A DNA stretch of 64,000 nucleotides, taken from Acetivibrio cellulolyticus CD2 (GTDB taxonomy: Bacteria; Bacillota; Clostridia; Acetivibrionales; Acetivibrionaceae). Shown piece after piece: positions 1,159 to 35,775 of the stretch. Below the pieces are notes generated by a model that made no database searches, had not been told where the DNA came from, and saw only the letters and a program-made list of their open reading frames with translations. How positions within the stretch are numbered: the stretch's first letter is position 1; each line of letters starts with the position of its first letter. Location of the stretch: NCBI RefSeq assembly GCF_000179595.2, contig NZ_JH556653.1, positions 1,856,500 to 1,920,499 on the forward strand, read 5' to 3'. The position numbers and the translations under genes were made by a program.

Positions 1159-1861
1159 GTCATGAAATACGTGTAGAATGTCAAATGTCAAGACCCTTCC
1201 GGCTCGAAAAATGCACCAATTCAACTAACTCTGGAAAGAACCTGTTTACCGCTTACCTTTGTTCCTTTACTTCTCCTGCATTTACTCCTGTAATTATATC
1301 ATAATTGTATGTTACGGGACCCATGACTATTGTATTGTTGTTTGCATCTACTGATGTTTCTGTCTTTGTTTTTACCCTGTTCAGTTCATCGTAGATTCTC
1401 TGCGTTGTGACTCTGCTCTGTAAAACCCCATTTTCCTTTGTCTCAACTATTATCTTTTTTAGATTTCCGTTTCCGTCATATCCCATGTCAGTTGATTCAT
1501 TCGGCACTGTTATCTGTACATATGTACTGCTATCGCCTGTAAACTGGCTTATCATCCTTCCATGACAGTCATATTCATAGGTTGTATTTTCCCCATTCCT
1601 ATCGAGCTTTTCCATCAGCTCTCCTGTGGGTGTATACTCATAAGTTTCAGTCTTTGATGCTACTCCTATTCCGTTTGGATCACATACCCTTTTGAGTTTT
1701 CCAGATGCGTTGTAATAGTATGTTGTTACATAGCCTCCAAGGTTCTGTTCCTTTAATGTTCCGTCTATATAGTAGGTGTCATGAAATACGTGTAGAATGT
1801 CAAATGTCAAGACCCTTCCGGCTCGAAAAATGCACCAATTCAACTAACTCTGGAAAGAACC
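638..1861. repeat. Tandem direct duplication of about 605 bp within RHS fragment
   Basis: Copies are 638-1242 and 1257-1861, offset by 619 bp and separated by 14 bp. They are almost identical; one visible difference is a G/A change in the 'tatgtgctg/tatgtactg' stretch. Each copy holds about 520 bp of RHS coding sequence plus the same 84-bp non-RHS tail. Near identity implies a recent event. Confidence 0.85.
1257..1777 (-). pseudogene. Second RHS-repeat fragment
   Basis: This is the RHS-coding part of the downstream copy of the tandem duplication and corresponds to about 5258-5774 of the intact gene. An ORF of 196 codons (1253-1843) crosses it but has no signal peptide, core domain or plausible ribosome binding site. 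It starts in the non-RHS tail and stops just past the duplication junction. It is best read as a remnant. Confidence 0.8.
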
Positions 1862-3104: not shown

Positions 3105-6100
3105 TCATTTACTTAAAAAATCATACCATTTTTGGGCACTTTCATTTCTTTTTTTACGTGCTGTACTTGAGTCTTCAGATCTTTCATAGGATCCATGGAA
3201 CACCAACGCCAATTCACCTGCGCCTTTGTGAGAATTAATAAACTCATTTACAGTCATTTTATATGGTGAGCCGTATTTTGTAGTTGGTATCCACTCACCT
3301 CCATATTTAGTTTTTTCTTCTTTGCTACCTTCTAAATTTAAAGTAATTAGCAAAAACTTCAATTGACTATCCATAAGTTCTTTAGGATTATTTTTTGCCA
3401 TCGCATCAGCTTTTTTTGCATCAAGACCCTTCCATTCAAGAAATTTTTCTGGAGCATACTTGTTTGGCGTCCATTGGACTAAACCATAACCATTCCCAAA
3501 CCCTGTTGTATCTAAGTTCTGCCATTCAGCAGGATTTATTCCGCTTTCTCTTTCCATATTTCCAAGCAATCCAGCAATAGCTTCTTTAGACCAACCTTTT
3601 GCAGTTAAATAGTTATAAATATATTTAGCGTTCGCTTGCTTTTGTTCTTCAGTCAAAGCTCCAATACCAGAACCAGCGTCACTTGTAATACAAGTATATA
3701 TTGTTCCATATTCGCCAGTCTGACCATATACTATATCGCCATACGCCCCCTTAGAAGATGTATTATTAGGCAAATCGTCTTCTGTAATTGCAGAGGTTCT
3801 CCTAGACGCTGCTATGGATTCCGAAGCACTAGTAGGTGTTTCTATTCCAGTGTTATATAGAAAATTTTTATCGTCTATATACATTTTCCCATCAAAAATC
3901 GGAGCATTAAAATTAAACTCTCTACCATCTTTTTTACGTACCGCTGTAGCCGTTTTAGTTTTTGGATCCCATTCTACCTCAAAATCATATTTTGTAGCTA
4001 TTTCTCTAAGCCACACAGCTGCATGACCTGTAGGATCAACATACATCATAGGTTCATTATGACAATATGCATACAGATTCAAACTCAACGGATCATTTGC
4101 ACTACCCATATATGTATCCTGCTGCAGGAACCTTGCCGTTTGCGGATCATAGTATCTTGCTTGAAGGTTATAGTACTTTGATTCCTCATCGTATTGGTAT
4201 CCGGCATACAATATCTGGCTCTTTATTATTTCGTTCTCATCTATTGTCTCTACTCCAGTGCTGTCATAGTAGGTCTCAGAGGTTATATTACCGAATTCAT
4301 CATACTTGTACTGTGAGCGGATATTCTTTGTCGTAGAATCCAGAAGGTCTGTCACATCAGCATGTCCGTTGTAGAAATAGTATACCTTGTCAGTTCCTGT
4401 TTCCCTTGAGATAAGGTTGGTTCCTATTACATTGAATGCGCTTATTGTCCCACTGTTTGTGTATTCAAATGCCACATTGTCATACTCATAGAAGTATCTT
4501 GCAGTCGTTCCGCCTACGGTTTTTGCAACCCTCTTTCCCTCTGCATTGTATGTATTCTCCATCTGCTGGTTTATACCTGTTGTCAAAGTAGTCTTGAGCT
4601 GGTTTAACAGAGTATAGGTATTGGTTGTTATAGTGCTAGGTCCATTTGTTATGTCATATACATTTTTCAGGTTGCCATTGCTGTCATGGAGATACAGTCT
4701 TTTCTGTATTATATTTCCGTATTGGTCATCCTCTCTCTTGGTCACATATTGAATCCTGTTATTATCGGTATATTCATATTTTGTATATGTCACCTCATTG
4801 GTTGCCGTTATGGTTTCTATCTCTGTATCCCTGTTCCCTCTTGAATCATAGGTATAGGCTATTGTCCTTTGTGCAGTATTTATATCAGGCTCATATATGT
4901 TTTTCAGCCTGTTCATGCAATCATATCCGTAGGATGTTGTCTCTGTTGGCTCTGTTGGCCCCCCTAAACGTTCCTGCTTCTGGGTCATGTTATGGGCTCC
5001 ATCATAGCAGTACTTATAGTATTCTGACTCGGCAAATACTCCCTGATCGTCCTTAGCTTGATTTGTAAGAGTATCCAACAGCCCGTCATCATAATACGTG
5101 TATACCTGTCTGAAATTATCGTTGTATGTTATACTTTCTCTTCTTCCATCATCATAGTAATCATATACGGTTGTTTGTCCGTCAGACGTCACTGTCTTCA
5201 ACCGTCCTGCTGCATCGTAGACCTTATCTACGCTATTGCTTCCAGGGTATACACTTTGTTCCTTTACTTCTCCTGCATTTACTCCTGTAATTATATCATA
5301 ATTGTATGTTACGGGACCCATGACTATTGTATTGTTGTTTGCATCTACTGATGTTTCTGTCTTTGTTTTTACCCTGTTCAGTTCATCGTAGATTCTCTGC
5401 GTTGTGACTCTGCTCTGTAAAACCCCATTTTCCTTTGTCTCAACTATTATCTTTTTGAGATTTCCGTTTCCGTCATATCCCATGTCAGTTGATTCATTCG
5501 GCACTCTTATCTGTACATATGTGCTGCTATCGCCTGTAAACTGGCTTATCATCCTTCCATGACAGTCATATTCATAGGTTGTATTTTTCCCATTCCTGTC
5601 GAGCTTTTCCATCAGCTCTCCTGTGGGTGTATACTCATAAGTTTCAGTCTTTGATGATACTCCTATTCCGTTTGGATCACATACCATTTTGAGTTTTCCA
5701 GATGCGTTGTAATAGTAAGTTGTTACATAGCCTCCAAGGTTCTGTTCCTTTAATGTTCCGTCTATATAGTAGGTATAGCTTGACATTGGAGTTGTTGCCG
5801 ACTCATCATTATATACATGCTCCAGCCTTCCTAAAATATCATATTCATACTTAAGTTCATTCTCTTCTCCATCACATTTAACACGCACATTGCCCATGTT
5901 ATCATATTCCTGACTCGCCACATGCAGTTCCGGGTCTGTTGTGGATACAAGCCTTCCGTTACAGTCATAATCATATTCTGTGAGCCTGTTATATGCATCA
6001 TAGGATTTATCCTGCAAGTTACGGGCATTGTATTCCAGCTTTTCATAAGCTACATTCATAGGATCTTTCTTTTCGTAAAGCCTGTTTAAGGCGTCATACT

Positions 6101-9100
6101 TGTATTTATTGGCATTGTCTCTCCAATTCACAGTCCTTATGAGGTTGCCGTTCAAGTCATAATCGTATGTAGTGTCATGAACCACACCACCTGCAGTCAC
6201 TGTAGAGAATTTCATCCTGTCAAGCTCGTCGTACTGGTAAGTTGTCTGTACACTATTTCCATCTGTAGTTGAAACAGTATTGCCGTTTTTGTCGTAGCTT
6301 GCATGAGTTGTTATTGCTTCATTTCCATTATATCTTTGTTGGCACTGCGTTTCAACCTTTGAGCTTACCACATTGTATGAATACAGATCACATATATCAT
6401 CTGTGGTATCTGTGAGCGTATTCATCATATTTTGCACATAAACCATATTTCCAAGTGAATTATATTGCATTATCTTCTGTGTTGAAGTCAAAGTCCCATC
6501 TACCTCGTAAGGCTCAACTGCTTTTGACAGCTTTCCGAAGTTGTTGTATTCATATGTAGAGGTATATTCAGTTCCTCCCTTGCATGAGGTATATTCAATG
6601 AGCTTGCCCTTCAAATCATATGTACTTTTTTCTACAACTCCGTTATTGTCAGTCAGATTGACTGTCTTTGTCACCTTGTTTGCTTTTATTATACTGCCTT
6701 CAAGCACATTATCATAGCCATAGGTTACTATTGCGCCAACAGCAGAGCTTTCATCAATTGTCGAGCCTGCCGGAAGAGTTCCTGCTGTTATCTGAGCTGC
6801 TATTTCTGCTTGTTCCTGTGTTGTGTCACTTTTTACCTTCTTTTCAGTTATCACTCTTCCTAAAGTGTCATATTCATATTTTACAGTAAACGGCAGATAC
6901 CTTTGCTTGTTTTCATGGTCAAGTTTGCTCAAAAGCTTTCCTTGCGGAGTGTATTCATTCTCTGTTACATCTGATTCCTGATCTGTCTCAGTCAACAGAT
7001 TGTTATTGTTGTCATAAGTATACTGTTTGTATGTGTCTAGAATCGAAGCAGACCAGGTTGAGTTGGTACTGTTAAATATGTACTCTTCACCGTCAAATCC
7101 GCTCCTTGTAATTCTTCCGAATTCGTCATATGTATAATAGTTATAGTTTGAACATATGTTTGATGGTGCTAAATAAGGGAACGTTACTGCTTCCATACTT
7201 TCTCTATAGTTATTTGGCGATACATCCCCAATCTTTCTTCCAGCATAGTCATACCAGTTCAGAGTTATACTGTTCTTCTGTACATACGCATCTGAGGTCT
7301 CATCATAAACAGTTACAGTGTCAATTATTTTTCTATTCAGACCTCTCCAATCATATTTGTACATTGTTGTAAAGCCTCGTGCATCTGTCTTTGCCAATAG
7401 ATTCCCCTGTGCATTTAACGTCCAGGATGTGGTTTCATTATAATTGCCATAATAACCTGATGTACTTTGACCGATAAGTCTGTTCATGTCATCATAGGTG
7501 TAGAACTCCATCCTCATATATATAGGCTCATTTGAACTTGTTCTGTTTCCGTTCTTGTCATAATAATTGTATTTATATACCGTATACGTACCCGTTGACG
7601 AATAGCTGTATCCGTAAATATCTCCTTCATTCACATAAAGCTTTTCAACCGCCGGTTTTCCAAGATAGTTGTTTGTATATTCCGTTGTTATTTTGTCAGT
7701 GTCATCTGTGTATTCTTCAATTTTATTTACATTACCTGCTCCATCATAATAATATGTTTTCTTTTCTCCGGTCATACCTGTAGAGGTCATAAGCTTGTTA
7801 TTCTCATAGTATTCATTAGTTGATTTATAAAATCCTGTATCAATTGAACTGCTGTGTATGGTTTCCCTGTTATTTGCAAAATCCGAAGAACTCACTTTGT
7901 CAATTTTAACCGCTTCATTTACCAAATTACCGGAATCATCATAAACCACTCTCTTATAGGTATAGAAGCTGGTCACTCCATCCGTACCCTCACATGGAGT
8001 CCATATATGTACAGGCCTTTTCTGAGTGTCGTAAAAATAGTATGTAGTAAAGCCTTCTCCATCTGTCAAACTCTTAACCGTTCCATCATAGTTGTATTCG
8101 GTTGAAGTTCCTATTTCTCCTGTTCCCGGTTCCTTAACGGTTTCTACAAGCCTTCCTGCATAATCATACCTGCTTGTTTCCAGCAATCCTTCCGTAGTAT
8201 TTAAAATAGTTGTATGCTGTACAACACTGTAGTAATTATTCTCTGATATGTATTCGGGTGAAAGGTATTCGTATGACTCTAATGTAATCTCCGCTTCCCC
8301 ATAGGGTGTTGCACTTGCTTTTGTAATTCTGTCCTTTGAATCGTATTCATAACTGTATACAGTACGTTCTATTCCACCTGCTGAATTCAGATCTGGTTGA
8401 GTCTTTGTGAGAATGTTTCCATTTTCATTATAAGTATAATAGGTCACATTCCCCTCGGCATCAGTTTCTTTTATTACCAGAGTTGTCCCATCTTTATACT
8501 CGTACCTGTATCCGACTGTTGCAGCACTATATGTATGGGATGCTATATTGTCATAGGTTGAGTTATACAGATTTGGTGTTATTTTCTGTATTAACCTTCC
8601 CACAAGGTCATACACATATCTCTCAATACTTTTATTTCCTGCTGTACTTAACGAATCACTGTCACACGATGTCTTTCTTTCAAGTTTACCGTTGTTGTCA
8701 TATTCATACCATGTAGACATATATGTGGTGTAGCCGTTCAAAAGTATTTTTTCACTTTCTATCAACCTTGAAGAATTATATGTGTATTCTACACTATTAC
8801 CCTCAGGATCGGTTATACTTTGAAGCATCCCGTCAGCATAATAACTATAACTATAACTCGTATCGACTTTATTTCCACTGTTTACCGTCGAATATAATTT
8901 AGGCTCAATCATGTATTCAATCTGCCCATCTGATCTATATCCATATGTAGTAATATATGAGTTTGTGCTATTAAGACTGCTTAATTCGGGATATTGTAAT
9001 AAAGCAGTCTTTGTCCTGTATACATACTTTTCCTCAAGCAACCTTGAATTGTTGTAGTTGTAATATGTATAACTTCTCTCTTCATCCTTTTCCCATTTGA

Positions 9101-11441
9101 GTAAATTCAGTCTATCCTGATCAGTATAGTAACCATATTCCTTTTGTGACCCATCCGGGTTTATGACTTTTGTTATATTCCCATAATCGTCTCTTTCATA
9201 GGTGGTCTTATTTCCATAAATGTCTGTCTTGCTCTTTACCTCACTATATTTATTGACAAAAATACCATCTGCAGCTTCTTCAGTAAAATACTCAATAACG
9301 GTGCTTGTTCCGTCATTCTCAACTAGCTCATTTATAGCATAATTCTGGTCAAACCTGTCCACTGTTGTTCTTGTCTTCCCGTTTATTTCACTGGTTGAAA
9401 TGGTTTCACCCGGTTTGTATGTAAAATTCGTCACCTTTCCATACATATCAGTATGCTGTGTAATTCTGCCATCATTATTGTACACTACATAATCAATATT
9501 GTGCTGAACTTTTGAACCATTCTCTATCTTTTCTGTAAGCTTAACATATTCAAGAGCTCCATCATTAGCGTAATAATTGTATTCATATATTTCATTTCCA
9601 TTTGCATCTTCTACTATTTGCAGCTTACCATAGCTGTCTAAAGTGTATACTATAGTTCTGCTTGTCAACGTATCTGTTGCAACTATCTGCGTTGAAGATG
9701 GATAAGTAATTTGAATTGTCCTGCCTGTTTGGTCCGCTATAGTGTTAATTTTACCATCACTCAAGTGTCCAATAGTTATTGTGTTACCACAATAGTCTTT
9801 AATATAGCTCAGAAGGTATTTATTATTTTTTTTATTGTATCCGTAACGAGTTCTGTCCTTTAAGGTCATTTCAAAACTATCAGTTCCCTGGAAATACGAA
9901 AGCTCTGCCCTTGAGTCCTCCCCTTTATATACCTTTGAAGGTGTTTGAGTAGGGCTTGGTGTAACAGAAGGCGTAGGTGTAGCCGTGCTGCTTGGTGAAG
10001 GAGAAACCTCTGCAAAATTAAACATACTTCCATCTGGCATATATACTCCGGCAACACTATTGGAGGTTTCTACACTTCCCTCATAACTGAATGTCCACCC
10101 GGTTCCTAACATTCCATCTTTTTCATTTTTAGAATTGTAAGTCCTTCCAATTTCCATATTCAATCCTACCCCAGCTATAGTCATATCTGTATAGGATCTT
10201 CCAAAACTTCCTGTAGGAGTGTAAATACCATCAACGCCGAAGTATCGTTCGTTGTTTTCAAGTTGAATCAGATACTGGTAAAATGTAGAAGTCGCTCTTC
10301 CGGAGGGATTAAAAGTGTATTTTGTTAACGGTTTATTTATGCCTAAATATCTAAACTTTGACAAAGTATCAGAACCATTAAATGTAATAGTAGTTTGTCC
10401 AGTTAAATCAAGCCCATTCAGATAAACTTTATTGTTTCCACCCGGCTGAAATGTATTTATTCCATTTACCTGAAAAACGTTCCCTGTTACCTGAATAATA
10501 CCATCATTTAAGTAGATGCCATTGTGAATTTGAGAAGTATTAAAATAAAATTCTCCCTTAACATAGATATAATCATCTGACTGCAGCATTTTAAGTTTTG
10601 AATTGTCTTGAATTGTATAACTGGTCATTGCAATAAGTTTTCCACCATTCAAATTAACTTCCGAGCTATTTTTCTGGGTGTAGCTTCCATATACTTTTAA
10701 CATCTTTCCATTTAAATCTAACATTCCGCCGTTAACGCTCAGATTCCTACCATATACATAATTATTTTGCAGCGTCATATTTGATGTTATCTCTTGATCA
10801 CCACATATTACTGTTATTGTGTTACTATTGGAAGACTCAACCTGTTCGCTGCCTTCTCCAGTATATGCTCTAACCACAAAAGTATTTGTATTGGTTATAT
10901 CCATTTCATACTTTTCCGTTGTAGTTGAAGCAATAGATGTACCATTCTTATAAACATGGTACCCATCCGCACCTTCTGACGGCATCCATGTCAGTATAAG
11001 ATGTCCACCGTTTAAAGTTGCATTTATTACCTCAGCGTCAAGGTTATAAGGTGCATTTACGATTTCGGTAGACAATAGTGATGTTATCAAGGTAGAAGTG
11101 CTGAGTAGCGGCGATAAACTGCCTATTACAGGCTTTGTACTTGTATTTTCTCCTATTTCCTCATGGTATTCCTTTTTTGCCTCTTCTATAATTATCTTCT
11201 CTTCTTTCTGGTATTTAGAAATCATTTCCTTTTGACTTGATCTATCATTTTCAACCTTACTCTTAAATTCCGAATATAGACTTTGAATTTCCTCTTCACT
11301 CATTTTTGTTTTAACCATACCTTCGTTTACATCAATAGCAGGCTTAAATCCTCCTGTATTTGTTGGTTCTGCAAAAGCTGAAAATGTTAGTGCTTGAAGA
11401 ACAAAAACAATTACTGTAATTAATGCTACAACTTTTCTCAT
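3105..11441 (-). CDS. Secreted RHS-repeat protein with C-terminal phage-tail-lysozyme-like domain
   Basis: A 2778-aa protein. Residues 1-24 are a signal peptide (ending SAFA). About 130-212 is a fibronectin-III-like domain, and 215-370 is an Asn/Gly-rich beta-solenoid-like stretch. A DUF6531-like segment lies around 404-460 and a Thr/Pro/Ser-rich linker at 477-504. Many YD/RHS repeats run from about 520 to 2400. The RHS core (ARYYDPQTARFLQQDTY, then NLYAYCHNEPMMYVDPTGH) ends near 2465. After a linker, residues 2600-2778 (KGWSKEAIAGLLGNMERESG, then GYGLVQWTP) resemble the phage tail lysozyme family. RHS proteins commonly form a shell around a variable C-terminal toxin, so this is probably a polymorphic toxin or wall-acting enzyme. 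The start is ATG after a GGGGGATAAAGAAAG region. Fragments of the same gene lie downstream. Confidence 0.9.
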   Translation of the reverse strand: MRKVVALITVIVFVLQALTFSAFAEPTNTGGFKPAIDVNEGMVKTKMSEEEIQSLYSEFKSKVENDRSSQKEMISKYQKEEKIIIEEAKKEYHEEIGENTSTKPVIGSLSPLLSTSTLITSLLSTEIVNAPYNLDAEVINATLNGGHLILTWMPSEGADGYHVYKNGTSIASTTTEKYEMDITNTNTFVVRAYTGEGSEQVESSNSNTITVICGDQEITSNMTLQNNYVYGRNLSVNGGMLDLNGKMLKVYGSYTQKNSSEVNLNGGKLIAMTSYTIQDNSKLKMLQSDDYIYVKGEFYFNTSQIHNGIYLNDGIIQVTGNVFQVNGINTFQPGGNNKVYLNGLDLTGQTTITFNGSDTLSKFRYLGINKPLTKYTFNPSGRATSTFYQYLIQLENNERYFGVDGIYTPTGSFGRSYTDMTIAGVGLNMEIGRTYNSKNEKDGMLGTGWTFSYEGSVETSNSVAGVYMPDGSMFNFAEVSPSPSSTATPTPSVTPSPTQTPSKVYKGEDSRAELSYFQGTDSFEMTLKDRTRYGYNKKNNKYLLSYIKDYCGNTITIGHLSDGKINTIADQTGRTIQITYPSSTQIVATDTLTSRTIVYTLDSYGKLQIVEDANGNEIYEYNYYANDGALEYVKLTEKIENGSKVQHNIDYVVYNNDGRITQHTDMYGKVTNFTYKPGETISTSEINGKTRTTVDRFDQNYAINELVENDGTSTVIEYFTEEAADGIFVNKYSEVKSKTDIYGNKTTYERDDYGNITKVINPDGSQKEYGYYTDQDRLNLLKWEKDEERSYTYYNYNNSRLLEEKYVYRTKTALLQYPELSSLNSTNSYITTYGYRSDGQIEYMIEPKLYSTVNSGNKVDTSYSYSYYADGMLQSITDPEGNSVEYTYNSSRLIESEKILLNGYTTYMSTWYEYDNNGKLERKTSCDSDSLSTAGNKSIERYVYDLVGRLIQKITPNLYNSTYDNIASHTYSAATVGYRYEYKDGTTLVIKETDAEGNVTYYTYNENGNILTKTQPDLNSAGGIERTVYSYEYDSKDRITKASATPYGEAEITLESYEYLSPEYISENNYYSVVQHTTILNTTEGLLETSRYDYAGRLVETVKEPGTGEIGTSTEYNYDGTVKSLTDGEGFTTYYFYDTQKRPVHIWTPCEGTDGVTSFYTYKRVVYDDSGNLVNEAVKIDKVSSSDFANNRETIHSSSIDTGFYKSTNEYYENNKLMTSTGMTGEKKTYYYDGAGNVNKIEEYTDDTDKITTEYTNNYLGKPAVEKLYVNEGDIYGYSYSSTGTYTVYKYNYYDKNGNRTSSNEPIYMRMEFYTYDDMNRLIGQSTSGYYGNYNETTSWTLNAQGNLLAKTDARGFTTMYKYDWRGLNRKIIDTVTVYDETSDAYVQKNSITLNWYDYAGRKIGDVSPNNYRESMEAVTFPYLAPSNICSNYNYYTYDEFGRITRSGFDGEEYIFNSTNSTWSASILDTYKQYTYDNNNNLLTETDQESDVTENEYTPQGKLLSKLDHENKQRYLPFTVKYEYDTLGRVITEKKVKSDTTQEQAEIAAQITAGTLPAGSTIDESSAVGAIVTYGYDNVLEGSIIKANKVTKTVNLTDNNGVVEKSTYDLKGKLIEYTSCKGGTEYTSTYEYNNFGKLSKAVEPYEVDGTLTSTQKIMQYNSLGNMVYVQNMMNTLTDTTDDICDLYSYNVVSSKVETQCQQRYNGNEAITTHASYDKNGNTVSTTDGNSVQTTYQYDELDRMKFSTVTAGGVVHDTTYDYDLNGNLIRTVNWRDNANKYKYDALNRLYEKKDPMNVAYEKLEYNARNLQDKSYDAYNRLTEYDYDCNGRLVSTTDPELHVASQEYDNMGNVRVKCDGEENELKYEYDILGRLEHVYNDESATTPMSSYTYYIDGTLKEQNLGGYVTTYYYNASGKLKMVCDPNGIGVSSKTETYEYTPTGELMEKLDRNGKNTTYEYDCHGRMISQFTGDSSTYVQIRVPNESTDMGYDGNGNLKKIIVETKENGVLQSRVTTQRIYDELNRVKTKTETSVDANNNTIVMGPVTYNYDIITGVNAGEVKEQSVYPGSNSVDKVYDAAGRLKTVTSDGQTTVYDYYDDGRRESITYNDNFRQVYTYYDDGLLDTLTNQAKDDQGVFAESEYYKYCYDGAHNMTQKQERLGGPTEPTETTSYGYDCMNRLKNIYEPDINTAQRTIAYTYDSRGNRDTEIETITATNEVTYTKYEYTDNNRIQYVTKREDDQYGNIIQKRLYLHDSNGNLKNVYDITNGPSTITTNTYTLLNQLKTTLTTGINQQMENTYNAEGKRVAKTVGGTTARYFYEYDNVAFEYTNSGTISAFNVIGTNLISRETGTDKVYYFYNGHADVTDLLDSTTKNIRSQYKYDEFGNITSETYYDSTGVETIDENEIIKSQILYAGYQYDEESKYYNLQARYYDPQTARFLQQDTYMGSANDPLSLNLYAYCHNEPMMYVDPTGHAAVWLREIATKYDFEVEWDPKTKTATAVRKKDGREFNFNAPIFDGKMYIDDKNFLYNTGIETPTSASESIAASRRTSAITEDDLPNNTSSKGAYGDIVYGQTGEYGTIYTCITSDAGSGIGALTEEQKQANAKYIYNYLTAKGWSKEAIAGLLGNMERESGINPAEWQNLDTTGFGNGYGLVQWTPNKYAPEKFLEWKGLDAKKADAMAKNNPKELMDSQLKFLLITLNLEGSKEEKTKYGGEWIPTTKYGSPYKMTVNEFINSHKGAGELALVFHGSYERSEDSSTARKKRNESAQKWYDFLSK

Positions 11442-27551: not shown

Positions 27552-27587
27552 TTTACATAACCTCTTTTCGCTTAAATAACACAATAT

Positions 27588-27761: not shown

Positions 27762-28877
27762 CTAAAGCGAATTTACAAGTAATTTCATTCCTTCTAATGC
27801 CTTACTGTCAGCAACTTTACATTCATCGATTAAAGCAGCGATTTGATGCCTTATATCTGATTTCGCAAAATTTTGCATTTGCATTTCGTTTCTGGCATAT
27901 CCACCAAGGACATCCGCCATTTTACTTACATTTTTTGCCACTTTAGCAAACTGCTCCTCAATGACTTTGCACGTATTGCTATGCTCTTTCATTTCTTCTG
28001 ATAATTTTTTCATGAAAATCGCTGCATTATTCCGCCCATCAATAAGACAATCCATTGCATCACCTTGACACATAAGACGTTCAGCTAAAATTGGTAAAAT
28101 TGCATTCTGAGGAAAATCTGACTCATTTAATATAGCACTTTTCCATGCATCATATGCCATTAAGCCTTTTGCAAAAGTCTTTCCACCCCTTTTATCAAGA
28201 CGTCCAGTCAATACTTTAATTGCGTTTTCAATTATCGCCTTATTTGATATTGGCAGTTTATTTTGTTCTCCAAGTGAAATAACTGCTATAGTCTCATTAT
28301 TTTCCCACCATTTACTTGAGATGAAATATCCAGATTCATCAATCCTAACATCTGTTGCAAACTCAGTTGCATCTTGGAAAAAGTTCCACCCCAACAAAGT
28401 TTCACCATTATCTCTGTAACCAGAAATAATACAGGCTTCTGGCGGTCCAATTATTCCTAATGCTATGCATGGAAATCCTTTATCTATTTGTTTTGTAATA
28501 AAACTTATAAAATCATTTTTATTATCAGAGTTATTACTACTGTTGAATTCTATATCGCACGAAGTATTCGCCCTTGTTATTATTTGGTATTCCCGTCCTA
28601 GTGCTTCAATACCTAACTTATATGTTTCCTCTGGGCTATCAAAAGTGTGCATAATATCTACATTCCCACAATTCCATGAAGTGGTATCCCATGTTAGCCT
28701 AAAAGCTGCTCCTGTTGATACCATTGAAAAGTCGATACTTACATCCTGACCGAGATAATTTGCACAACTTTTTACACACATTGGGTATGGGGTACACCCT
28801 TCGGCACCATATTCAACTTTAGATATCCCATATAGTACAACGCTATTTTCGCATTCTTGTTTGCCGCTACTATTCAT
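27762..28877 (-). CDS. Unknown protein, possibly with a BtrH/C39-peptidase-like N-terminal domain
   Basis: About 371 aa from the ATG at 28877 (GAGAGG upstream). The N-terminal half has a Cys-containing segment (GCTPYPMCVKSCANYLG) and, later, PPEACIISGYRDNGETLLGWNFF, an arrangement loosely like papain-fold proteins of the BtrH/C39 type (weak resemblance). The C-terminal 130 residues are helical. There is no signal peptide. The start overlaps the stop of the AraC gene by 8 nt, so the two are translated together and probably function together. I cannot assign a reaction. Confidence 0.55.
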   Translation of the reverse strand: MNSSGKQECENSVVLYGISKVEYGAEGCTPYPMCVKSCANYLGQDVSIDFSMVSTGAAFRLTWDTTSWNCGNVDIMHTFDSPEETYKLGIEALGREYQIITRANTSCDIEFNSSNNSDNKNDFISFITKQIDKGFPCIALGIIGPPEACIISGYRDNGETLLGWNFFQDATEFATDVRIDESGYFISSKWWENNETIAVISLGEQNKLPISNKAIIENAIKVLTGRLDKRGGKTFAKGLMAYDAWKSAILNESDFPQNAILPILAERLMCQGDAMDCLIDGRNNAAIFMKKLSEEMKEHSNTCKVIEEQFAKVAKNVSKMADVLGGYARNEMQMQNFAKSDIRHQIAALIDECKVADSKALEGMKLLVNSL

Positions 28878-29280
28878 TTTTATCATCCTCTCTTTTAATT
28901 TGATTAAGTAGACCAATTCCGAAAACACAAGTACACAGTTTTATTCTACCTACAGGCGGACGTTTTTTTCTGAACTCAGATGGAGTTAAGCCTGTAATTC
29001 TTTTAAATGCACGTGTAAAAGTATCATGATTTGCAAATCCATACTTTGTTGCAATGTTTATAACACTTTGGTGGTTATATAGTAGTTCATATGCTGCATT
29101 GGAAACTTTACGAGTAATAATATACTTCGAAAGAGACATGCCTGTCCTTAACATAAAAATTTCACGTATATGTGCTAAAGAAAAACCTGTAGCCCTTTCA
29201 AGTTCTTTATAGTCTATCTTATCCTGTATTCTGTTTTCAATAAAAATGATAATAGAACTTATAGTCAGAAAATAATCCAT
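28870..29280 (-). CDS. Short AraC-family transcriptional regulator
   Basis: A 136-aa protein that is almost only the AraC DNA-binding domain: two helix-turn-helix units at about 24-60 (DYKELERATGFSLAHIREIF) and 72-110 (INIATKYGFANHDTFTRAFKRITGLTPSEFRK). It lacks the usual sensor domain, so signal input may come from the coupled downstream protein (inference). A weak GGTGG site precedes the ATG. Confidence 0.85.
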   Translation of the reverse strand: MDYFLTISSIIIFIENRIQDKIDYKELERATGFSLAHIREIFMLRTGMSLSKYIITRKVSNAAYELLYNHQSVINIATKYGFANHDTFTRAFKRITGLTPSEFRKKRPPVGRIKLCTCVFGIGLLNQIKREDDKNE

Positions 29281-29756: not shown

Positions 29757-32405
29757 TCAGCCTGCGCTCTGAACCATATCCTCTGATTTGACCAAACCGC
29801 TTTGAATTTCTGACTTGAGTTCATTTACAATATTTAATGCGGCCTCAAAGTTCTCATAAAACATTACAATAAAGTCCCTTGGTTGAGCATCAAGTATAGC
29901 CTTTTCCAGCGCCTTTTCCTCTGAGTAGATGATCTCAACATTTTCCTTTGAAACTCCGCTTTTTATAGCTTCATCATAGAAAATTCCGGCTACTTCACCA
30001 GGCTCCCTGCCTCTTAGATCCGCATCTTCCTTTATATATAAACGATCAAACCCAGCAGCACAAATTTGAGCAGCACTGCACATACTTGAGTCCTGCCTGT
30101 CTCCCGGCATACCAATAATCCCTACCAATCTATTAGCTTCAAGCTTCTTTACAAATTTAATTACCTCTTCAAATCCTGCCGGATTATGACTGTAATCCAG
30201 CATCACCTTAAATTCTCCCATATCAAATATATTAAATCTTCCAGGGTTGGAACTTGTATCCGGCAAGAATGAAACCAACCCAGCTTTTATAGTCTCGAGA
30301 GGCATATCCAATCCCCAAAGCGCAGAAACTGCTGCAAGGCAGTTTTCTATATTACACTCCAGGATGCCTCCAAATGTAATAGGTATATCCTTGGTCTTTG
30401 CAAGCTGAATGGTTACTCCTTTTTTAACCAAAAAGATCTCTCCGCCATCAAGATACACTGCTCTCTTTCCCTGCGAAATGTGATCTTGCATAATAGAACT
30501 ATGTTTATCTTTTGAAAACAGTATAACTTTACTTTTTGCCCTATCCATAAAATACCGGGCAAATCCATCATCTGCGTTTATAACTGCATATCCCTTAGGC
30601 TTGACCGCTTCAATTACAAGAGACTTTGCAGATGCCAGATCTTCAGCGGTATCAACTCCATCTATACCCAGGTGATCTTCACTTACATTCGTGATAACTC
30701 CAACATCAGCAAGGTCATATCCAAGGCCTTTTCTAACAAGTCCACCCCTCGCTGTCTCAAGCACTGCTGCATCTATAGACTTGTTTGAAAGTAACATTCT
30801 AGCACTAACAAATCCGGTATTATCACCCTTTAATATACATTCATCACCAATGTAAATTCCACTAGTAGTTGTCATACCTACTGTTTTTCCCTGAAGTTCC
30901 AAAGTATGAGCTATAAGTCTTGTTGTTGTGGTCTTTCCGTTCGTTCCTGTAACAGAAACAATAGGAATTGAATGGGCTTCTCCTTCAGGAAACATCATAT
31001 CCAAAACATCAGATGCTACATTTCTTGACTTTCCAATAGTAGGATAAATATGCATCCTTAGACCTGGTGCTGCATTAACTTCTATTATAGCTCCATTTTG
31101 ATTGTATAACGGCTTAGATATATCATCGCAGCACACATCAATACCTGCAATATCCAATCCAAGAACTTTTGCTGCACTTACTACAAGCTGCGCGTTATGA
31201 GGATGAACTTCTTCTGTACAATCCCTGGCTGTTCCGCCGGTACTTATATTGCTGTTATATCTAAGGTAAACAATTTCATCCAACTTAGGAACATAATACT
31301 CATCGCAGTCCTGATTGAGCAGAACCTTTTTAGCCAGATCGTCAAGCTTAATTTTTGTGAGAGGCTTTTCGTGGTCAGCACCTCTCAATTCATTAGAATT
31401 TTCTATTTCCACCAGTTCCGCAATATTATGAACGCCATCTCCGCTGACAGACGGCGGACGCCTTTCAGCTGCTGCGGATACTTTATCACCAATTACAAGT
31501 ACCCTATAGTCCTTACCATAAATATACTTCTCAACTAAAACACATTTGGAAAACTTTTTCGCTTCTTTAAATGCTATTCGTACATCCTGCTCGTCCCTAA
31601 TGTTAACGGTAACTCCCTTACCCTGATTACTATCAAGTGGTTTGACAACTACAGGAAAACCTATTTTTTTTGCAGTATAGATAGCCCCTTCCTCACTATA
31701 TGATACATCACCCTCAGGTACAGGAATCATAAAATCTCTCAGAATATTCTTCGTTAAATCTTTGTTACTGACTGTATCTACTGATATGCAGCTTGGCGAA
31801 TCTGTAAGTGATGCCTGTATCATTCTCGAGTATTTTCCATATCCAAGCTGTATCATGCTTCCATTCCCTACACGTGTAACAGGTATACCCCTTTTTTGTG
31901 CTTCGGCGTATATAGCTTTTGTACTCGGTCCCAGGTCATTCTCAACGGCTATTGCCTTTAAATTTTCCAGTTTATTTGAAAAGTCTACTTCTTCATTATT
32001 CAGAATCCGACAAATAAATTCAAACACAGTTCGGGCACATTCTATAGCACATTTCTCATTTTTATATTCAAATACAATATAATAGAGAGAGGGCTCATTT
32101 ATAACTCTTGTCTTACCGTAGTGAACTTCATATCCAAGCATATTCTGGAGCTCTAATATCATATGTTCTGCCACATGGCCTATATAAGTTCCTTCACCAA
32201 GTCTTTCTAAGAATCCTCCTTCATAACCGAGGGAACAATAGTGTGTGCGCAATCCCGGAAAAGTTTCCAATATCTTTTCATTAAAACCTTCAAAATCCTT
32301 TGTAGGGTTTTTATACAGTTCACCAATATCCGCTAATATTTTTATTACAGGTTTGTGACTATAAATATTCCTTCCGCTAAAGCTCTGTATATTTAAGATT
32401 TGCAC
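29757..32405 (-). CDS. cphA: Cyanophycin synthetase
   Basis: About 882 aa. It polymerises aspartate and arginine into cyanophycin, a nitrogen and carbon store, using two ATP-dependent ligase activities. The N-terminal domain (from QILNIQSFSGRNIYSHKPV) is the family's usual start. The ATP-grasp domain shows PVVVKPLDSNQGKGVTVNI and IIEVNAAPGLRMH. The Mur-ligase-like half has VTGTNGKTTTTRLIAH, SEDHLGIDG and DYSHNPAGF. I set the start at GTG 32405: AGGAGG lies 7 nt upstream, while the frame open to 32438 begins before it. It is the last gene of the operon iadA-membrane protein-cphB-cphA. Confidence 0.95.
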   Translation of the reverse strand: MQILNIQSFSGRNIYSHKPVIKILADIGELYKNPTKDFEGFNEKILETFPGLRTHYCSLGYEGGFLERLGEGTYIGHVAEHMILELQNMLGYEVHYGKTRVINEPSLYYIVFEYKNEKCAIECARTVFEFICRILNNEEVDFSNKLENLKAIAVENDLGPSTKAIYAEAQKRGIPVTRVGNGSMIQLGYGKYSRMIQASLTDSPSCISVDTVSNKDLTKNILRDFMIPVPEGDVSYSEEGAIYTAKKIGFPVVVKPLDSNQGKGVTVNIRDEQDVRIAFKEAKKFSKCVLVEKYIYGKDYRVLVIGDKVSAAAERRPPSVSGDGVHNIAELVEIENSNELRGADHEKPLTKIKLDDLAKKVLLNQDCDEYYVPKLDEIVYLRYNSNISTGGTARDCTEEVHPHNAQLVVSAAKVLGLDIAGIDVCCDDISKPLYNQNGAIIEVNAAPGLRMHIYPTIGKSRNVASDVLDMMFPEGEAHSIPIVSVTGTNGKTTTTRLIAHTLELQGKTVGMTTTSGIYIGDECILKGDNTGFVSARMLLSNKSIDAAVLETARGGLVRKGLGYDLADVGVITNVSEDHLGIDGVDTAEDLASAKSLVIEAVKPKGYAVINADDGFARYFMDRAKSKVILFSKDKHSSIMQDHISQGKRAVYLDGGEIFLVKKGVTIQLAKTKDIPITFGGILECNIENCLAAVSALWGLDMPLETIKAGLVSFLPDTSSNPGRFNIFDMGEFKVMLDYSHNPAGFEEVIKFVKKLEANRLVGIIGMPGDRQDSSMCSAAQICAAGFDRLYIKEDADLRGREPGEVAGIFYDEAIKSGVSKENVEIIYSEEKALEKAILDAQPRDFIVMFYENFEAALNIVNELKSEIQSGLVKSEDMVQSAG

Positions 32406-32464
32406 TTTTTTTCCTCCTAGACAATATGCCCATTTCACAGCAGCAACTGTTACAAAAATAAATA

Positions 32465-33274
32465 TCAGTTTATTCTGAATACTTCCCTGTCCATCATATT
32501 AAATCCATACCCATGAGGCAGAACATGGATTGTAACGTTTGTAATGGCAAGGAGCTCATCCGGCTTGAGTTCTGATACGTTTGAACTCTTTATGGTATTT
32601 CCATCCACAACTGTAACTGCATTTGAACCAATTACTTCGAAGTGGGCATCGGGATAAACTCTTATTGCAGTATCTTCATCAATACCAATACCCAACATAA
32701 AAGGATTCTCAGCTACACCACACAGAAGCCTTCCAATTCTGCCTCTCTGATCAAAATGCTGGTCAATAATAGCTTCTTCCAGCAATCCAAGCCCTGGCGC
32801 CATTTTTAGTGTACATTTTCTTGCAGGCCCATTACTATCTCCTTCAACTATCATTGTATTACTCATTACTGAAGCACCTGCACTTGTACCAACAATTACT
32901 ACTCCCCGGGAGTACACTTCCTGCAAGGCTATGTTAGTTATTGTTCCGCCAAGAATACTTGTAATTCTAAGCTGATCTCCTCCTGTAAAGAAAACTCCAC
33001 CGCAGCTTCTTATTATATCTGCATTTCTTTCATCATTTGCCTCATCCCTAGTGTTAATATTCAATACCTGTATATTATTAAGCCCCAAAGACTCAAAAAC
33101 CATTCTGTAATTGTTTCCTACTTCCTCAGGCTTTTCCGTTGCAGTAGTTAATACTACGAGGCTTCCCTGCTGATGTCCGACAATATCAACAACATGTTTT
33201 AGAATAGTCTTATTTCCAACCTTGTCTTCGGCTCCACCTATTATTATCAAATTTCCTTTCACTTTCTCATCCAT
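32465..33274 (-). CDS. cphB: Cyanophycinase
   Basis: A 269-aa serine peptidase (family S51) that cuts cyanophycin to beta-Asp-Arg dipeptides. The nucleophile elbow VGTSAGASVMS, the glycine motif FTGGDQLRI, IIIGGAEDK at the N terminus and IDQHFDQRGRIGRL match the family. There is no signal peptide, so it acts on intracellular polymer. GGAGG precedes the ATG. It lies 59 nt upstream of cphA, giving synthesis and breakdown in one operon. Confidence 0.95.
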   Translation of the reverse strand: MDEKVKGNLIIIGGAEDKVGNKTILKHVVDIVGHQQGSLVVLTTATEKPEEVGNNYRMVFESLGLNNIQVLNINTRDEANDERNADIIRSCGGVFFTGGDQLRITSILGGTITNIALQEVYSRGVVIVGTSAGASVMSNTMIVEGDSNGPARKCTLKMAPGLGLLEEAIIDQHFDQRGRIGRLLCGVAENPFMLGIGIDEDTAIRVYPDAHFEVIGSNAVTVVDGNTIKSSNVSELKPDELLAITNVTIHVLPHGYGFNMMDREVFRIN

Positions 33275-33309
33275 AGCTGTCCTCCAACCAAATTCTTATT
33301 GCACTATAA

Positions 33310-33340
33310 AAAAGCAAGGATTTATCCTATCCTTGCTTTT
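33310..33340 (-). terminator. Hairpin between the small membrane gene and cphB
   Basis: AAAAGCAAGGA (33310-33320) pairs with TCCTTGCTTTT (33330-33340), followed on the minus strand by TTTTTTATAG. It looks like a true intrinsic terminator inside the operon. It may end an iadA-membrane-protein transcript or lower cphBA expression. Confidence 0.75.
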
Positions 33341-33348
33341 GATAAGTA

Positions 33349-33609
33349 CTACATTCCCAAATAGTGTCTGGTGTAATTCATTATTACTCCGCTAAAAATC
33401 AAACCAATACCCATCAGTATTATACTTGCAACAATTACAAACAAGCCTGCTCTACTGCCTTTTTTTGTTGAAAGTATACCCATTATCACACCCACTACTC
33501 CGAAAATAAAGGGATATGCAAAAAGTGAAGCAATTGCACATATTACTCCTATTACAGTTAAAAAACCTGCACCTTTTGCAGTCTTTGCCCGAGTATCAAC
33601 TCTTTCCAT
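33349..33609 (-). CDS. Small DUF4190-like membrane protein
   Basis: An 86-aa protein with two hydrophobic hairpins (about 15-48 and 52-78) typical of the DUF4190 type: GVVGVIMGILSTKKGSRAG. Start ATG with AAGGGTG upstream. It lies between iadA and cphB. Any role in cyanophycin storage is unknown. Confidence 0.7.
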   Translation of the reverse strand: MERVDTRAKTAKGAGFLTVIGVICAIASLFAYPFIFGVVGVIMGILSTKKGSRAGLFVIVASIILMGIGLIFSGVIMNYTRHYLGM

Positions 33610-33728
33610 AAAATCACCCTTTTTAAAGAGATCGAACTTAAGAATAAAATAAATAATTATCTTTACAGTTCGCTATCCCTAAGTATTTACATTTTTGCAA
33701 ACTCATATTCATAATTTGTAGAAGCACA

Positions 33729-34880
33729 CTATAAATCTTCATAAAAACCCTTTCTGATTACCAAACCATTATCTACAAATTTTTCTCCACCTATGATAAC
33801 GCTATTAATGCTGAAATCCTGCTTGTTTATAATAAGTATATCCCCATCACTGCCTTCAGCCAGTGTCCCCTTTCCAGGAAAAAGTTTAATTCTCTTTGCT
33901 ACATTTTCTGATACGGTTTTAAGTATCGTAGTAAGATCAAGCTTCCTATCTAAAATACAAATTCTTATATCTTCAAACAGTTGTAATGCCTTTCCTACCG
34001 ATGGCCCGGAACCAGTTGAAGGAATACTGCCATTACCGTCCGATGATACAGTCACCCGCTCCATAGCAACCTTCTCTCTTAGGAGCAGTTCCATAGCATC
34101 AGGTATAGAATAACCAGATTCACTGCTCTGCCCGGCGGTCAAATCTATATTCCCCCCGCTGTTTGCAAATTCTATAGCTTGATGGAATAAATTCTTATTC
34201 CTGTTAAGATGTGTAGGGATGAACATATCAATAGGAAAATCCGAGTTCTCAATAAGCTCCTTAAGTGGCCTCAAACCGTTCTTCCCATCCCCGACATGTA
34301 TGTGCACAATACCAGCCTTCTTGCTTAAAAGGCCACCTAATCTTGCTTCATAAGCAACCTCCCTGAGCATATCTATCGTTGGGTGGGATGACCTATGGTC
34401 AGATATCGCTATTTCTCCTATCCCAATAATCTTATCAATAAGAGTTATATCCTTCATTGCCTTACCTGTAATAGTTGCTGTTGGAACTTCATAGCTCCCT
34501 GTATATATATATGTGTTTAATCCTTCTTCTTCCAAGGCCCGAGCCTTTGCCAAAAGACCCGCTATATTTCTGGTTATGCTGTCAAAGCCCAAAACGCCTA
34601 CAACAGTTGTAATTCCTGCAACTAATATTTCACTTAGTTTAATTTCAGGTATTCTGCTTATAAATCCCTCTTCTCCACCCCCGCCTGTTATATGAAGGTG
34701 CTGATCTATAAAACCCGGACAGATTATTTTATCTGTGCAGTCAATAATTTCTACATCACGCAGGTTTTCTCCCGGTACGGTATCATCAATTTTACATATT
34801 TTGTTCAATACAATTAGGATGTCTTTTTTCCCTAGATACTGAGGCGCATAACATATACCATTCTTTAGAAGTTTGAACAT
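33729..34880 (-). CDS. iadA: Beta-aspartyl (isoaspartyl) dipeptidase
   Basis: A 383-aa zinc amidohydrolase. Metal motif GFIDQHLHITGGGGEEGF, the E of YTGSYEVPT, the His residues of HIHVGDG and FIPTHLNR, and the catalytic Asp in TVSSDGNGS follow the IadA pattern. It splits beta-aspartyl dipeptides, here very likely the beta-Asp-Arg released by the adjacent cyanophycinase, returning Asp and Arg. AGGAGG lies about 9 nt before the ATG. It is the first gene of the operon and is divergent from a LexA-like regulator. Confidence 0.95.
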   Translation of the reverse strand: MFKLLKNGICYAPQYLGKKDILIVLNKICKIDDTVPGENLRDVEIIDCTDKIICPGFIDQHLHITGGGGEEGFISRIPEIKLSEILVAGITTVVGVLGFDSITRNIAGLLAKARALEEEGLNTYIYTGSYEVPTATITGKAMKDITLIDKIIGIGEIAISDHRSSHPTIDMLREVAYEARLGGLLSKKAGIVHIHVGDGKNGLRPLKELIENSDFPIDMFIPTHLNRNKNLFHQAIEFANSGGNIDLTAGQSSESGYSIPDAMELLLREKVAMERVTVSSDGNGSIPSTGSGPSVGKALQLFEDIRICILDRKLDLTTILKTVSENVAKRIKLFPGKGTLAEGSDGDILIINKQDFSINSVIIGGEKFVDNGLVIRKGFYEDL

Positions 34881-34948
34881 TCCACCACCTCCTTTTTATG
34901 TATGGTACGCAAATAATTCTTTTTCATGCGGAAATTATTTTTTCACAA

Positions 34949-34977
34949 ATTATATATTTTTTCGACAAAACATGTAC
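34949..34977 (-). promoter_or_regulatory. Promoter of the cyanophycin operon
   Basis: On the minus strand a perfect TATAAT (34949-34954) with a poor -35 (GTACAT, 34972-34977) 17 bp upstream. The -35 lies inside the perfect palindrome at 34968-34985, which suits control by a DNA-binding regulator. Confidence 0.5.
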
Positions 34978-34985
34978 ACATGTTT
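34968..34985. promoter_or_regulatory. Perfect palindrome, candidate operator of iadA-cph
   Basis: AAACATGT-AC-ACATGTTT: two 8-bp half sites 2 bp apart, overlapping the presumed -35 of the iadA promoter in the divergent region. Confidence 0.5.
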
Positions 34986-35028
34986 ATCATTTATATCCAT
35001 ATTCTTGTAACAATGCTAGTAATTACGG

Positions 35029-35057
35029 TTGCGAAGTCATTTTTTATTTGCTAATAT
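35029..35057 (+). promoter_or_regulatory. Promoter of the LexA-like gene
   Basis: TTGCGA (35029-35034), 17 bp, TAATAT (35052-35057). The predicted transcript starts near 35064, just before the second palindrome. Confidence 0.5.
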
Positions 35058-35070
35058 TTAAATAATACTT

Positions 35071-35092
35071 TATGTAAATTTAGATTTACATA
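35071..35092. promoter_or_regulatory. Perfect palindrome, candidate autoregulatory operator
   Basis: TATGTAAAT-TTAG-ATTTACATA, 9-bp arms, between the predicted transcription start and the ribosome binding site of the LexA-like gene. Confidence 0.5.
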
Positions 35093-35124
35093 AAAATACA
35101 TTTTTAAAATAAAGGATGGTCAAA

Positions 35125-35775
35125 GTGGCTGCAGATTTTAATCTTCTAACCTCAAAGCAGAAAAAGGTCTATTCTGTTATTGAGTCATTCATCAAATTAA
35201 AGGGTATTCCCCCTACAGTGAGGGAAATAGGAGAGATGGTTGGTGAAAAAACTCCTGGTGCAGTCCAGGGTATATTAAACCGTCTCGAGCAAAAGGGTGT
35301 TATTAAGCGAGAAGTTGGTATGGCAAGATCAATACAACTTGTCACCGATACATCACAATACATGACCCCTGTATATTTGCCTAAAATAAAGAAAATAACA
35401 AACCGTAACATTTCCGATTTGTTTAATATCTATAACATAGTAAAATATTATCCGTTCCCTTCAGAATTATTTAAATCGGAAAACGCTTCAGAAAACTACT
35501 TCATAATGAGTTGTCCTGATAACAGTCTTTTAAACAGCGGAATAAAATATGAGGACTGTCTTATTATTGACAGGCAATCCGCAAATAGCTTAGAAGACGG
35601 GGATATTGTATTAGTATTGTACGATAACCATGCACTTTTAAGATATTTTAGTAAACATGAAGACACCAACAATGTAGTTTTAAAAGCAGATAGTGACCTT
35701 ATAGGCAAGGATGTCTTTAATAAGGATGAAGTAATGATTATAGGTAAACTTATTGGAAAATATACAAAGTATTAA
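35125..35775 (+). CDS. LexA-fold transcriptional regulator lacking self-cleavage residues
   Basis: About 216 aa. The N-terminal winged helix matches LexA closely (LTSKQKKVYSVIESFIKLKGIPPTVREIGEMVG, then QGILNRLEQKGVIKRE). The C-terminal domain has the S24/LexA fold outline (DNSLLNSGIKYEDCLIIDRQ, DGDIVLVLYDNHALLRYF). The Ala-Gly or Cys-Gly cleavage site expected after the HTH is not visible. The position of the catalytic Lys (usually in T-V-K-R-F) is Arg here (L-L-R-Y-F). It therefore probably cannot self-cleave and is not the SOS repressor. Start GTG at 35125 with AAAGGA 8 nt upstream; an ATG at 35116 overlaps that site. It is divergent from the cyanophycin operon. Confidence 0.8.
   Translation: MAADFNLLTSKQKKVYSVIESFIKLKGIPPTVREIGEMVGEKTPGAVQGILNRLEQKGVIKREVGMARSIQLVTDTSQYMTPVYLPKIKKITNRNISDLFNIYNIVKYYPFPSELFKSENASENYFIMSCPDNSLLNSGIKYEDCLIIDRQSANSLEDGDIVLVLYDNHALLRYFSKHEDTNNVVLKADSDLIGKDVFNKDEVMIIGKLIGKYTKY

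Follow-up and report, generated by a model that had tools for sequence, protein, structure and literature searches.

The closest described relatives of the regulator considered here are the SOS LexA proteins, among them those of Escherichia coli and Clostridium thermocellum (Clo1313_1449); the motif found for the latter by DNA affinity purification sequencing (DAP-seq) resembles the LexA motif of Bacillus subtilis, according to the accessible part of that report (PMC8457756). Two LexA-like proteins depart from the SOS scheme, as far as the available portions of the papers tell. The LexA of Synechocystis sp. PCC 6803 is without the Ala-Gly cleavage site and without part of the Ser-Lys dyad, and a role outside the SOS response has been suggested for it (PMC4759255); IrvR of Streptococcus mutans acts outside the RecA scheme and retains self-cleavage (PMC7101444). 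The subject of this report is REG, a LexA-fold protein encoded in a 64,000-nucleotide stretch of the Acetivibrio cellulolyticus CD2 genome (contig NZ_JH556653.1; hereafter the window), divergently from genes for cyanophycin metabolism (the cph set). The reading we favour, with moderate confidence, is that REG is a LexA paralogue dead for cleavage, that it regulates its own gene through the sequence TTATGTAAA, and that the cph operon is its frequent but dispensable neighbour, plausibly co-regulated.

For the cyanophycin genes, the available part of a survey of gene clusters (PMC10206079) reports that cphA, cphB and iadA are clustered in 37 of the 231 genomes possessing all three, and that IadA and/or IaaA occur in just 10.1% of Firmicutes genomes with CphA1; the term 'LexA' is absent from the survey's text. 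The accessible part of PMC5640608 contains no regulator of interest, and among open-licence papers we found no description of a regulator of the REG type.

Descent from LexA and loss of the self-cleavage residues

REG (35116-35775, plus strand, 219 residues) is built like LexA: a winged helix-turn-helix (wHTH) at about residues 11-71 matches Pfam LexA_DNA_bind (PF01726; E 3.7e-16, 59.1 bits, cut-off 23.7), and a C-terminal domain of the S24 fold at about residues 107-213 matches Peptidase_S24 (PF00717; E 4.4e-12, 46.2 bits, cut-off 23.3). The top Foldseek matches of the predicted fold are LexA structures, the model itself being modest (predicted local distance difference test score, pLDDT, 72; predicted template modelling score, pTM, 0.45). 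On the lexA model TIGR00498 the window protein scores 102.5 bits, below the NCBIfam cut-off of 110.95, and five orthologues score 90.8-112.7, one of the five (from genome G003) slightly above it; two normal LexA proteins reach 242.4 and 248.5 bits.

The residues that LexA needs to cut itself have been replaced. In a full-length alignment, Ala84-Gly85 of E. coli LexA falls on Asn96-Arg97 of REG and the catalytic Lys156 on Arg176; the equivalent of Ser137 is present. The initial annotation had described a LexA-fold regulator with no visible Ala-Gly site and with Arg in place of the catalytic Lys, and the alignment restored neither feature. The same holds across 40 REG proteins (both identical copies from G004 counted, the truncated L077 excluded): the position of the scissile Gly is Arg97 in all 40, that of the catalytic Lys is Arg in all 40, and the catalytic Ser is kept in 31 and lost in nine. 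None of the 40 carries the Ala-Gly site or the complete Ser-Lys dyad of an SOS LexA.

A separate, normal LexA is encoded in the same genome, with Ala-Gly, Ser and Lys all present and two GAAC-N4-GTTC boxes upstream of its gene; this rules out REG as the cell's sole LexA. No GAAC-N4-GTTC SOS box occurs anywhere in the window, the region upstream of REG included. In a tree of REG and LexA proteins (L045 and L077 excluded), the 40 REG rows are separated from 22 LexA rows with support of 100/100, a result that carries a long-branch warning, above all for L108 and E. coli LexA. Judged by its sequence, REG branched from LexA long ago as a paralogue; the DNA-binding domain and the S24 fold were kept, and the parts for self-cleavage were lost.

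L108, a LexA-like protein of genome G290, lies outside the REG clade on a long branch; its Ala-Gly site and its Lys look degenerate by eye, and it is perhaps another loss of cleavage.

Despite the lost catalysis, positions of the former cleft are more conserved in REG than the rest of the domain: over 39 rows, the mean frequency of the commonest residue is 0.74 in the cleavage loop, 0.72 in the Ser region and 0.71 in the Lys region, against 0.61 in the remaining C-terminal domain. This suggests that some function has been kept there. In the presumed recognition helix there is hardly any variation.

A different supposition is that REG is still inactivated by proteolysis, through a host protease or a different self-cleavage chemistry, and stays responsive to stress. 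The Ser137 equivalent of 31 rows would suit this idea, as would residues 79-116, which are mostly of low confidence in the AlphaFold model and possibly form a flexible linker; IrvR, too, self-cleaves independently of RecA. IrvR itself, however, retains the Ala/Gly site, according to the same available portion of its report (PMC7101444), whereas REG has lost that site and the Lys in every row and the Ser in nine. We hold continued proteolytic control to be very improbable.

Set beside the SOS LexA proteins of E. coli, C. thermocellum and its own genome, REG shares with them the domain order, the wHTH and the S24 fold, what looks like a site within its own promoter region and a divergent neighbouring gene. 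It differs in the missing Ala-Gly, the change of Lys to Arg, the motif, the lack of an SOS box in the window, the lexA scores (91-113 bits for the six REG proteins, 242 and 248 for the others) and its coexistence with a normal LexA. The likeness to Synechocystis LexA, as that protein is described in the part of the report at hand, is one of residues, the tree containing no cyanobacterial LexA: both proteins are without the Ala-Gly site and one member of the dyad, Ser in Synechocystis and Lys in REG. REG is moreover an extra paralogue, unlike the Synechocystis protein, and in our samples it is confined to one order, apart from a single genome from elsewhere.

A candidate operator at the REG promoter

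The region shared by REG and the first gene of the divergent operon, iadA, spans 34881-35115; it measures 235 bp, where the initial annotation gave 245 bp and placed a perfect palindrome at either promoter. Both palindromes are indeed perfect, and the one beside REG is conserved in the genus of the window; the symmetry of the other is not. The conserved one, TTTATGTAAATTTAGATTTACATAAA (35069-35094; 11-nt arms, 4-nt loop), holds two inverted TTATGTAAA half-sites and is the candidate REG operator. It lies directly 3' of the -10 box of a predicted REG promoter (35029-35057, plus strand; -35 TTGCGA at 35029-35034, 17-bp spacer, -10 TAATAT at 35052-35057). Most of 38 REG upstream regions show a similar layout (TTGA or TTGC, the same spacing, a TAAACT-like -10), according to a pattern picked after inspection of the sequences and with no chance control for its matches. 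Comparable palindromes arise in 0.45% of intergenic shuffles and number two in the whole window; this one is unlikely to be there by chance. Its close inverted pair of half-sites is the sole such pair in the 6.16-Mb genome (gaps of 2-30 searched; control, 0). As a leader RNA hairpin the palindrome is unsupported (z -1.42; 22 of 200 shuffles equally stable).

The half-site accompanies REG well beyond the genus. TTATGTAAA occurs in 35 of the 38 upstream regions (excluding L045, the second identical G004 copy, L051, at a contig end, and the truncated L077), against a shuffle mean of 1.15 and a largest value of 3 in 20 shuffles. The eight loci that have no cph genes alongside REG (G003-G007, G011, G031 and G072) all carry it upstream of that gene. 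By comparison, it precedes MEM, the small membrane protein gene of the cph set, in one of 11 cph loci without REG, and it is absent from the 12 kb fetched around the cph operon of G031, which is not linked to REG. Six rows carry two exact half-sites set 64-74 bp apart, one 24-25 bp ahead of the -35 box, its partner past the -10 box. Wide pairs of this kind (50-80 bp) were matched in six of 25 REG genomes scanned, at seven sites, all of them at REG; among seven REG-less genomes of family f3 the scan matched in G015 alone (two matches; controls in two genomes), and none of the three genomes of the window genus has such a pair. A half-site coupled to a -10 box was matched 42 times in 18 REG genomes, against 32 for the control; 17 of these matches are at REG, spread over 16 genomes (G000 and G027 being the exceptions), and 25 are elsewhere. 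The distribution of the motif fits a local autoregulator, with REG as the presumptive binder of the motif.

Several observations weigh against that assignment. Three of the 38 upstream regions (L072, L075 and L076) contain no exact site. The arrangement of half-sites varies, from the close inverted pair of the window genus to a single exact site in many other loci, so that standard LexA dimer geometry does not simply fit; the wide pair is missing from 19 of the 25 genomes scanned, and its reversed control matched in two of the 25. REG upstream regions share descent, which shuffling ignores. Single half-sites are not enriched in the window's own genome (241, against 312 for the reversed control), and the corresponding counts elsewhere are 265 against 332 in G003, 189 against 168 in G013, and 184 against 188 in G016, which has no REG; on these counts, in which no wider regulon is visible, a large regulon controlled through TTATGTAAA was rejected. 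Finally, the C. thermocellum DAP-seq work, in its accessible part, gives sites for 11 of more than 90 factors, with Clo1313_1449 as the sole LexA, and testing of a REG orthologue is not seen there (PMC8457756).

A second perspective on the motif supposes that TTATGTAAA is the site of some other conserved factor, a nitrogen or global regulator for example, which drives REG while REG itself acts elsewhere. The variable layout, unlike the spacing of a LexA dimer, would be less troublesome on this supposition; the binding of REG to the motif is a prediction, and the window holds seven copies of TTATGTAAA against a shuffle mean of 2.02. Against it, the motif lies upstream in just one of the 11 REG-less cph loci, it is unenriched across the window's own genome, and the paired sites of REG genomes are found at REG alone. 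Nor does the known nitrogen box fit. In the inverted pair, 8 bases separate TGTAA from TTACA, as against 7 in the GlnR/TnrA box (TGTNA-N7-TNACA); this spacing, by direct count, and the single exact half-site of many relatives do not match a GlnR/TnrA-regulated promoter. Control by another factor seems to us quite unlikely, and autoregulation by REG the better account.

The iadA side of the shared region is of another character. Its palindrome, AAACATGT-AC-ACATGTTT (AAACATGTACACATGTTT, 34968-34985; 8-nt arms, 2-nt loop), has counterparts in 6% of shuffled intergenic regions and is one of six such in the window; the symmetry is lost in both nearest relatives, and the palindrome is therefore probably incidental. 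Lost symmetry and chance frequency together rule it out as a conserved operator. Adjacent to it, TTCGACA at 34961-34967 (minus strand; TGTCGAA on the iadA strand) resembles a Spo0A box, and a TCGACAA core at this place is identical in the three genomes of the genus. TGTCGAA lies no more than 350 bp from the start of the operon in six of 30 loci with both REG and cph (shuffle mean 0.47, largest 4); it is found in none of seven REG loci without cph, in none of eight f3 loci, and in nine of 38 REG upstream regions. A Spo0A box was considered as the shared control; such counts are above chance and mark at most a feature of a sub-lineage. This side yielded no broadly conserved motif.

Linkage to the cyanophycin genes

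All the genes of the cph set are on the minus strand: iadA (beta-aspartyl dipeptidase, 33729-34880; TIGR01975, 441.4 bits, cut-off 331.25), MEM (33349-33609; 86 residues, a membrane protein by eye, with no family above cut-off in Pfam or NCBIfam), cphB (cyanophycinase, 32465-33274; TIGR02069, 321.5 bits, cut-off 126.6) and cphA (cyanophycin synthetase, 29757-32438; TIGR02068, 1217.9 bits, cut-off 850). The reading frames of the set and of REG lie where the initial annotation had put them, and the three enzyme roles it assigned are borne out by scores above the curated NCBIfam cut-offs; with the cphA, cphB and iadA equivalogs together, the window contains a cyanophycin gene cluster.

The distribution of REG was followed through a sample of 58 genomes of the order, REG being called at E <= 1e-40. 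Forty genomes have REG, 34 of them together with cphA and six (G003-G007 and G011) with no cphA match; 11 have cphA without REG, all of them members of family f3; seven have neither. G006 is 55% complete, yet its REG locus itself is without cph, and the other five cph-less genomes are 90-100% complete. The regulator was expected to stay beside the cph genes in relatives, and it does: in 32 of the 34 genomes with both, REG and the cph set share a contig as immediate, divergent neighbours (in G029 and G041 the contig ends before cphA). The gene facing it is iadA in 29 of these loci, MEM in two and cphB in one; the frequency of iadA here contrasts with the low figure for IadA and/or IaaA in the survey cited above (PMC10206079). 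Of the two unlinked cases, G052 has a contig break between REG and iadA, and G031 carries REG and cph on separate contigs, where other genes adjoin them. Sampling 391 genomes across the class added one further high-identity REG, in G072 (65%), which has no cph gene and no MEM next to it (a statement on this locus alone, as the rest of G072 was not searched for cph); 17 of the 20 weaker matches were translated, and by eye these are ordinary LexAs except L108.

The loci without cph are instructive. Gene order is REG, MEM, folE in G003-G007 and G011, and REG, folE in G072, FolE being identified by Pfam in G072, G003 and G011, by eye in G004 and G031, and from the length of the open reading frame (ORF) in G005-G007. 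In 12 mapped cph loci the gene after cphA is an ORF of 186-187 residues, which proved to be FolE wherever it was tested. Since folE comes after cphA in cph loci and after REG-MEM in loci without them, the cph genes appear to have been lost by removal in place. Mapped onto the REG tree, the label 'no cph beside REG' (eight rows, G031 included) requires four changes, three to four in bootstraps, and at least two are forced by well-supported branches.

Selection on REG seems little altered by the loss. The ratio of nonsynonymous to synonymous substitution rates (dN/dS) for REG spans 0.07-0.12 among the cph-less g2 genomes (six pairs) and 0.07-0.08 among the cph-bearing g3 genomes (three pairs), with no clear rise in the former; for MEM it is 0.15-0.29 against 0.11-0.16 in the same groups, and constraint on MEM may be somewhat relaxed in cph-less genomes. 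(The pair L043-L044 was omitted, its REG dS not being computable; the g1 pair L052-L053 gave a REG dS of 2.3 and 0.20 for MEM.) As REG dN/dS is not clearly raised in these cph-less g2 genomes, REG appears to have work beyond cyanophycin.

These observations bear on the proposal of the initial annotation that REG is a dedicated cyanophycin regulator. In its strongest form, the cph-less genomes would keep REG as a relic or on behalf of MEM, itself linked to cyanophycin. The 32 linked loci favour that view, as does the company MEM keeps: it adjoins REG in all six cph-less genomes of the order, and in groups without REG it precedes cphB-cphA, in 11 of 11 f3 loci and in all four fetched loci of f38, where five genomes matched (L083-L090, L126-L128, L153-L156). 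The view does not easily accommodate the rest: the lack of clear relaxation of REG in the cph-less g2 genomes; G072, in which REG and the motif persist and no MEM or cph gene lies alongside; G031, with cph away from REG and without the motif; the 11 genomes that have cph and no REG; and an iadA side devoid of any broadly conserved motif. With six of 40 REG genomes of the order lacking a cphA match and the motif retained there, the proposal as it was made is not supported, and its revised form is in our judgement unlikely. Cyanophycin is probably not the sole reason for REG to exist, if gene content and rates of change are a guide.

Some features of these loci may be recorded separately. G004 has, on a single contig, two matching and oppositely oriented REG-MEM-folE regions (L044 and L045) about 1.9 Mb apart, with identical REG scores. 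Four genomes (G028, G030, G048 and G032; L116-L119) have a second cphA-like gene, 48-49% identical to that of the window, with no cphB or iadA adjoining. In 12 mapped relatives a folE-sized ORF directly follows cphA, unlike the window, in which an AraC-type HTH ORF (by eye) and a 388-residue ORF intervene between cphA and folE (27762-29280, minus strand). A copy of TTATGTAAA at 27552-27560 (minus strand) abuts the likely folE start, and in G003 another lies 33 bp before folE; among the loci compared, no further copy was seen just upstream of that gene. Far from REG, the window encodes a 2778-residue YD-repeat protein, RHS-like by eye (3105-11441, minus strand), part of whose repeat region is duplicated as a separate downstream ORF (265-1224, minus strand).

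A probable local autoregulator and its possible signal

On the favoured reading, REG would bind as a dimer to the TTATGTAAA half-sites around its own promoter and so repress its own gene. A small molecule or a partner protein, bound at the former catalytic cleft, would set the state of REG and release it from the promoter; cutting triggered by RecA would play no part in this. Where cph genes are present, REG plausibly affects cyanophycin turnover as well: the site falls within the region shared with iadA-MEM-cphB-cphA, but beside the REG promoter, and an effect on the divergent operon is plausible from that position.

An extension of this reading, which we regard as doubtful, has the cleft turned into a ligand pocket, in which the invariant Arg97 and Arg176 would bind an anionic metabolite. 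REG would then represent an order-wide family of dead LexA proteins with the cph genes as frequent clients, in which sensing of damage would have given way to sensing of a metabolite and the role of autorepressor would have been kept.

The lexA scores have a practical side: with one of six REG proteins just above the cut-off, some members of the group may be mislabelled 'LexA'. MEM, a small cyanophycin-linked membrane protein of no known family, is worth study in its own right. For REG, a candidate operator is defined, and nature supplies species with and without cph genes. The protein itself is a LexA paralogue outside the self-cleaving scheme, with a normal LexA retained in the same cell; if its protease cleft now serves as a ligand pocket, REG would illustrate cleanly how a self-cutting repressor can become a conventional sensor.

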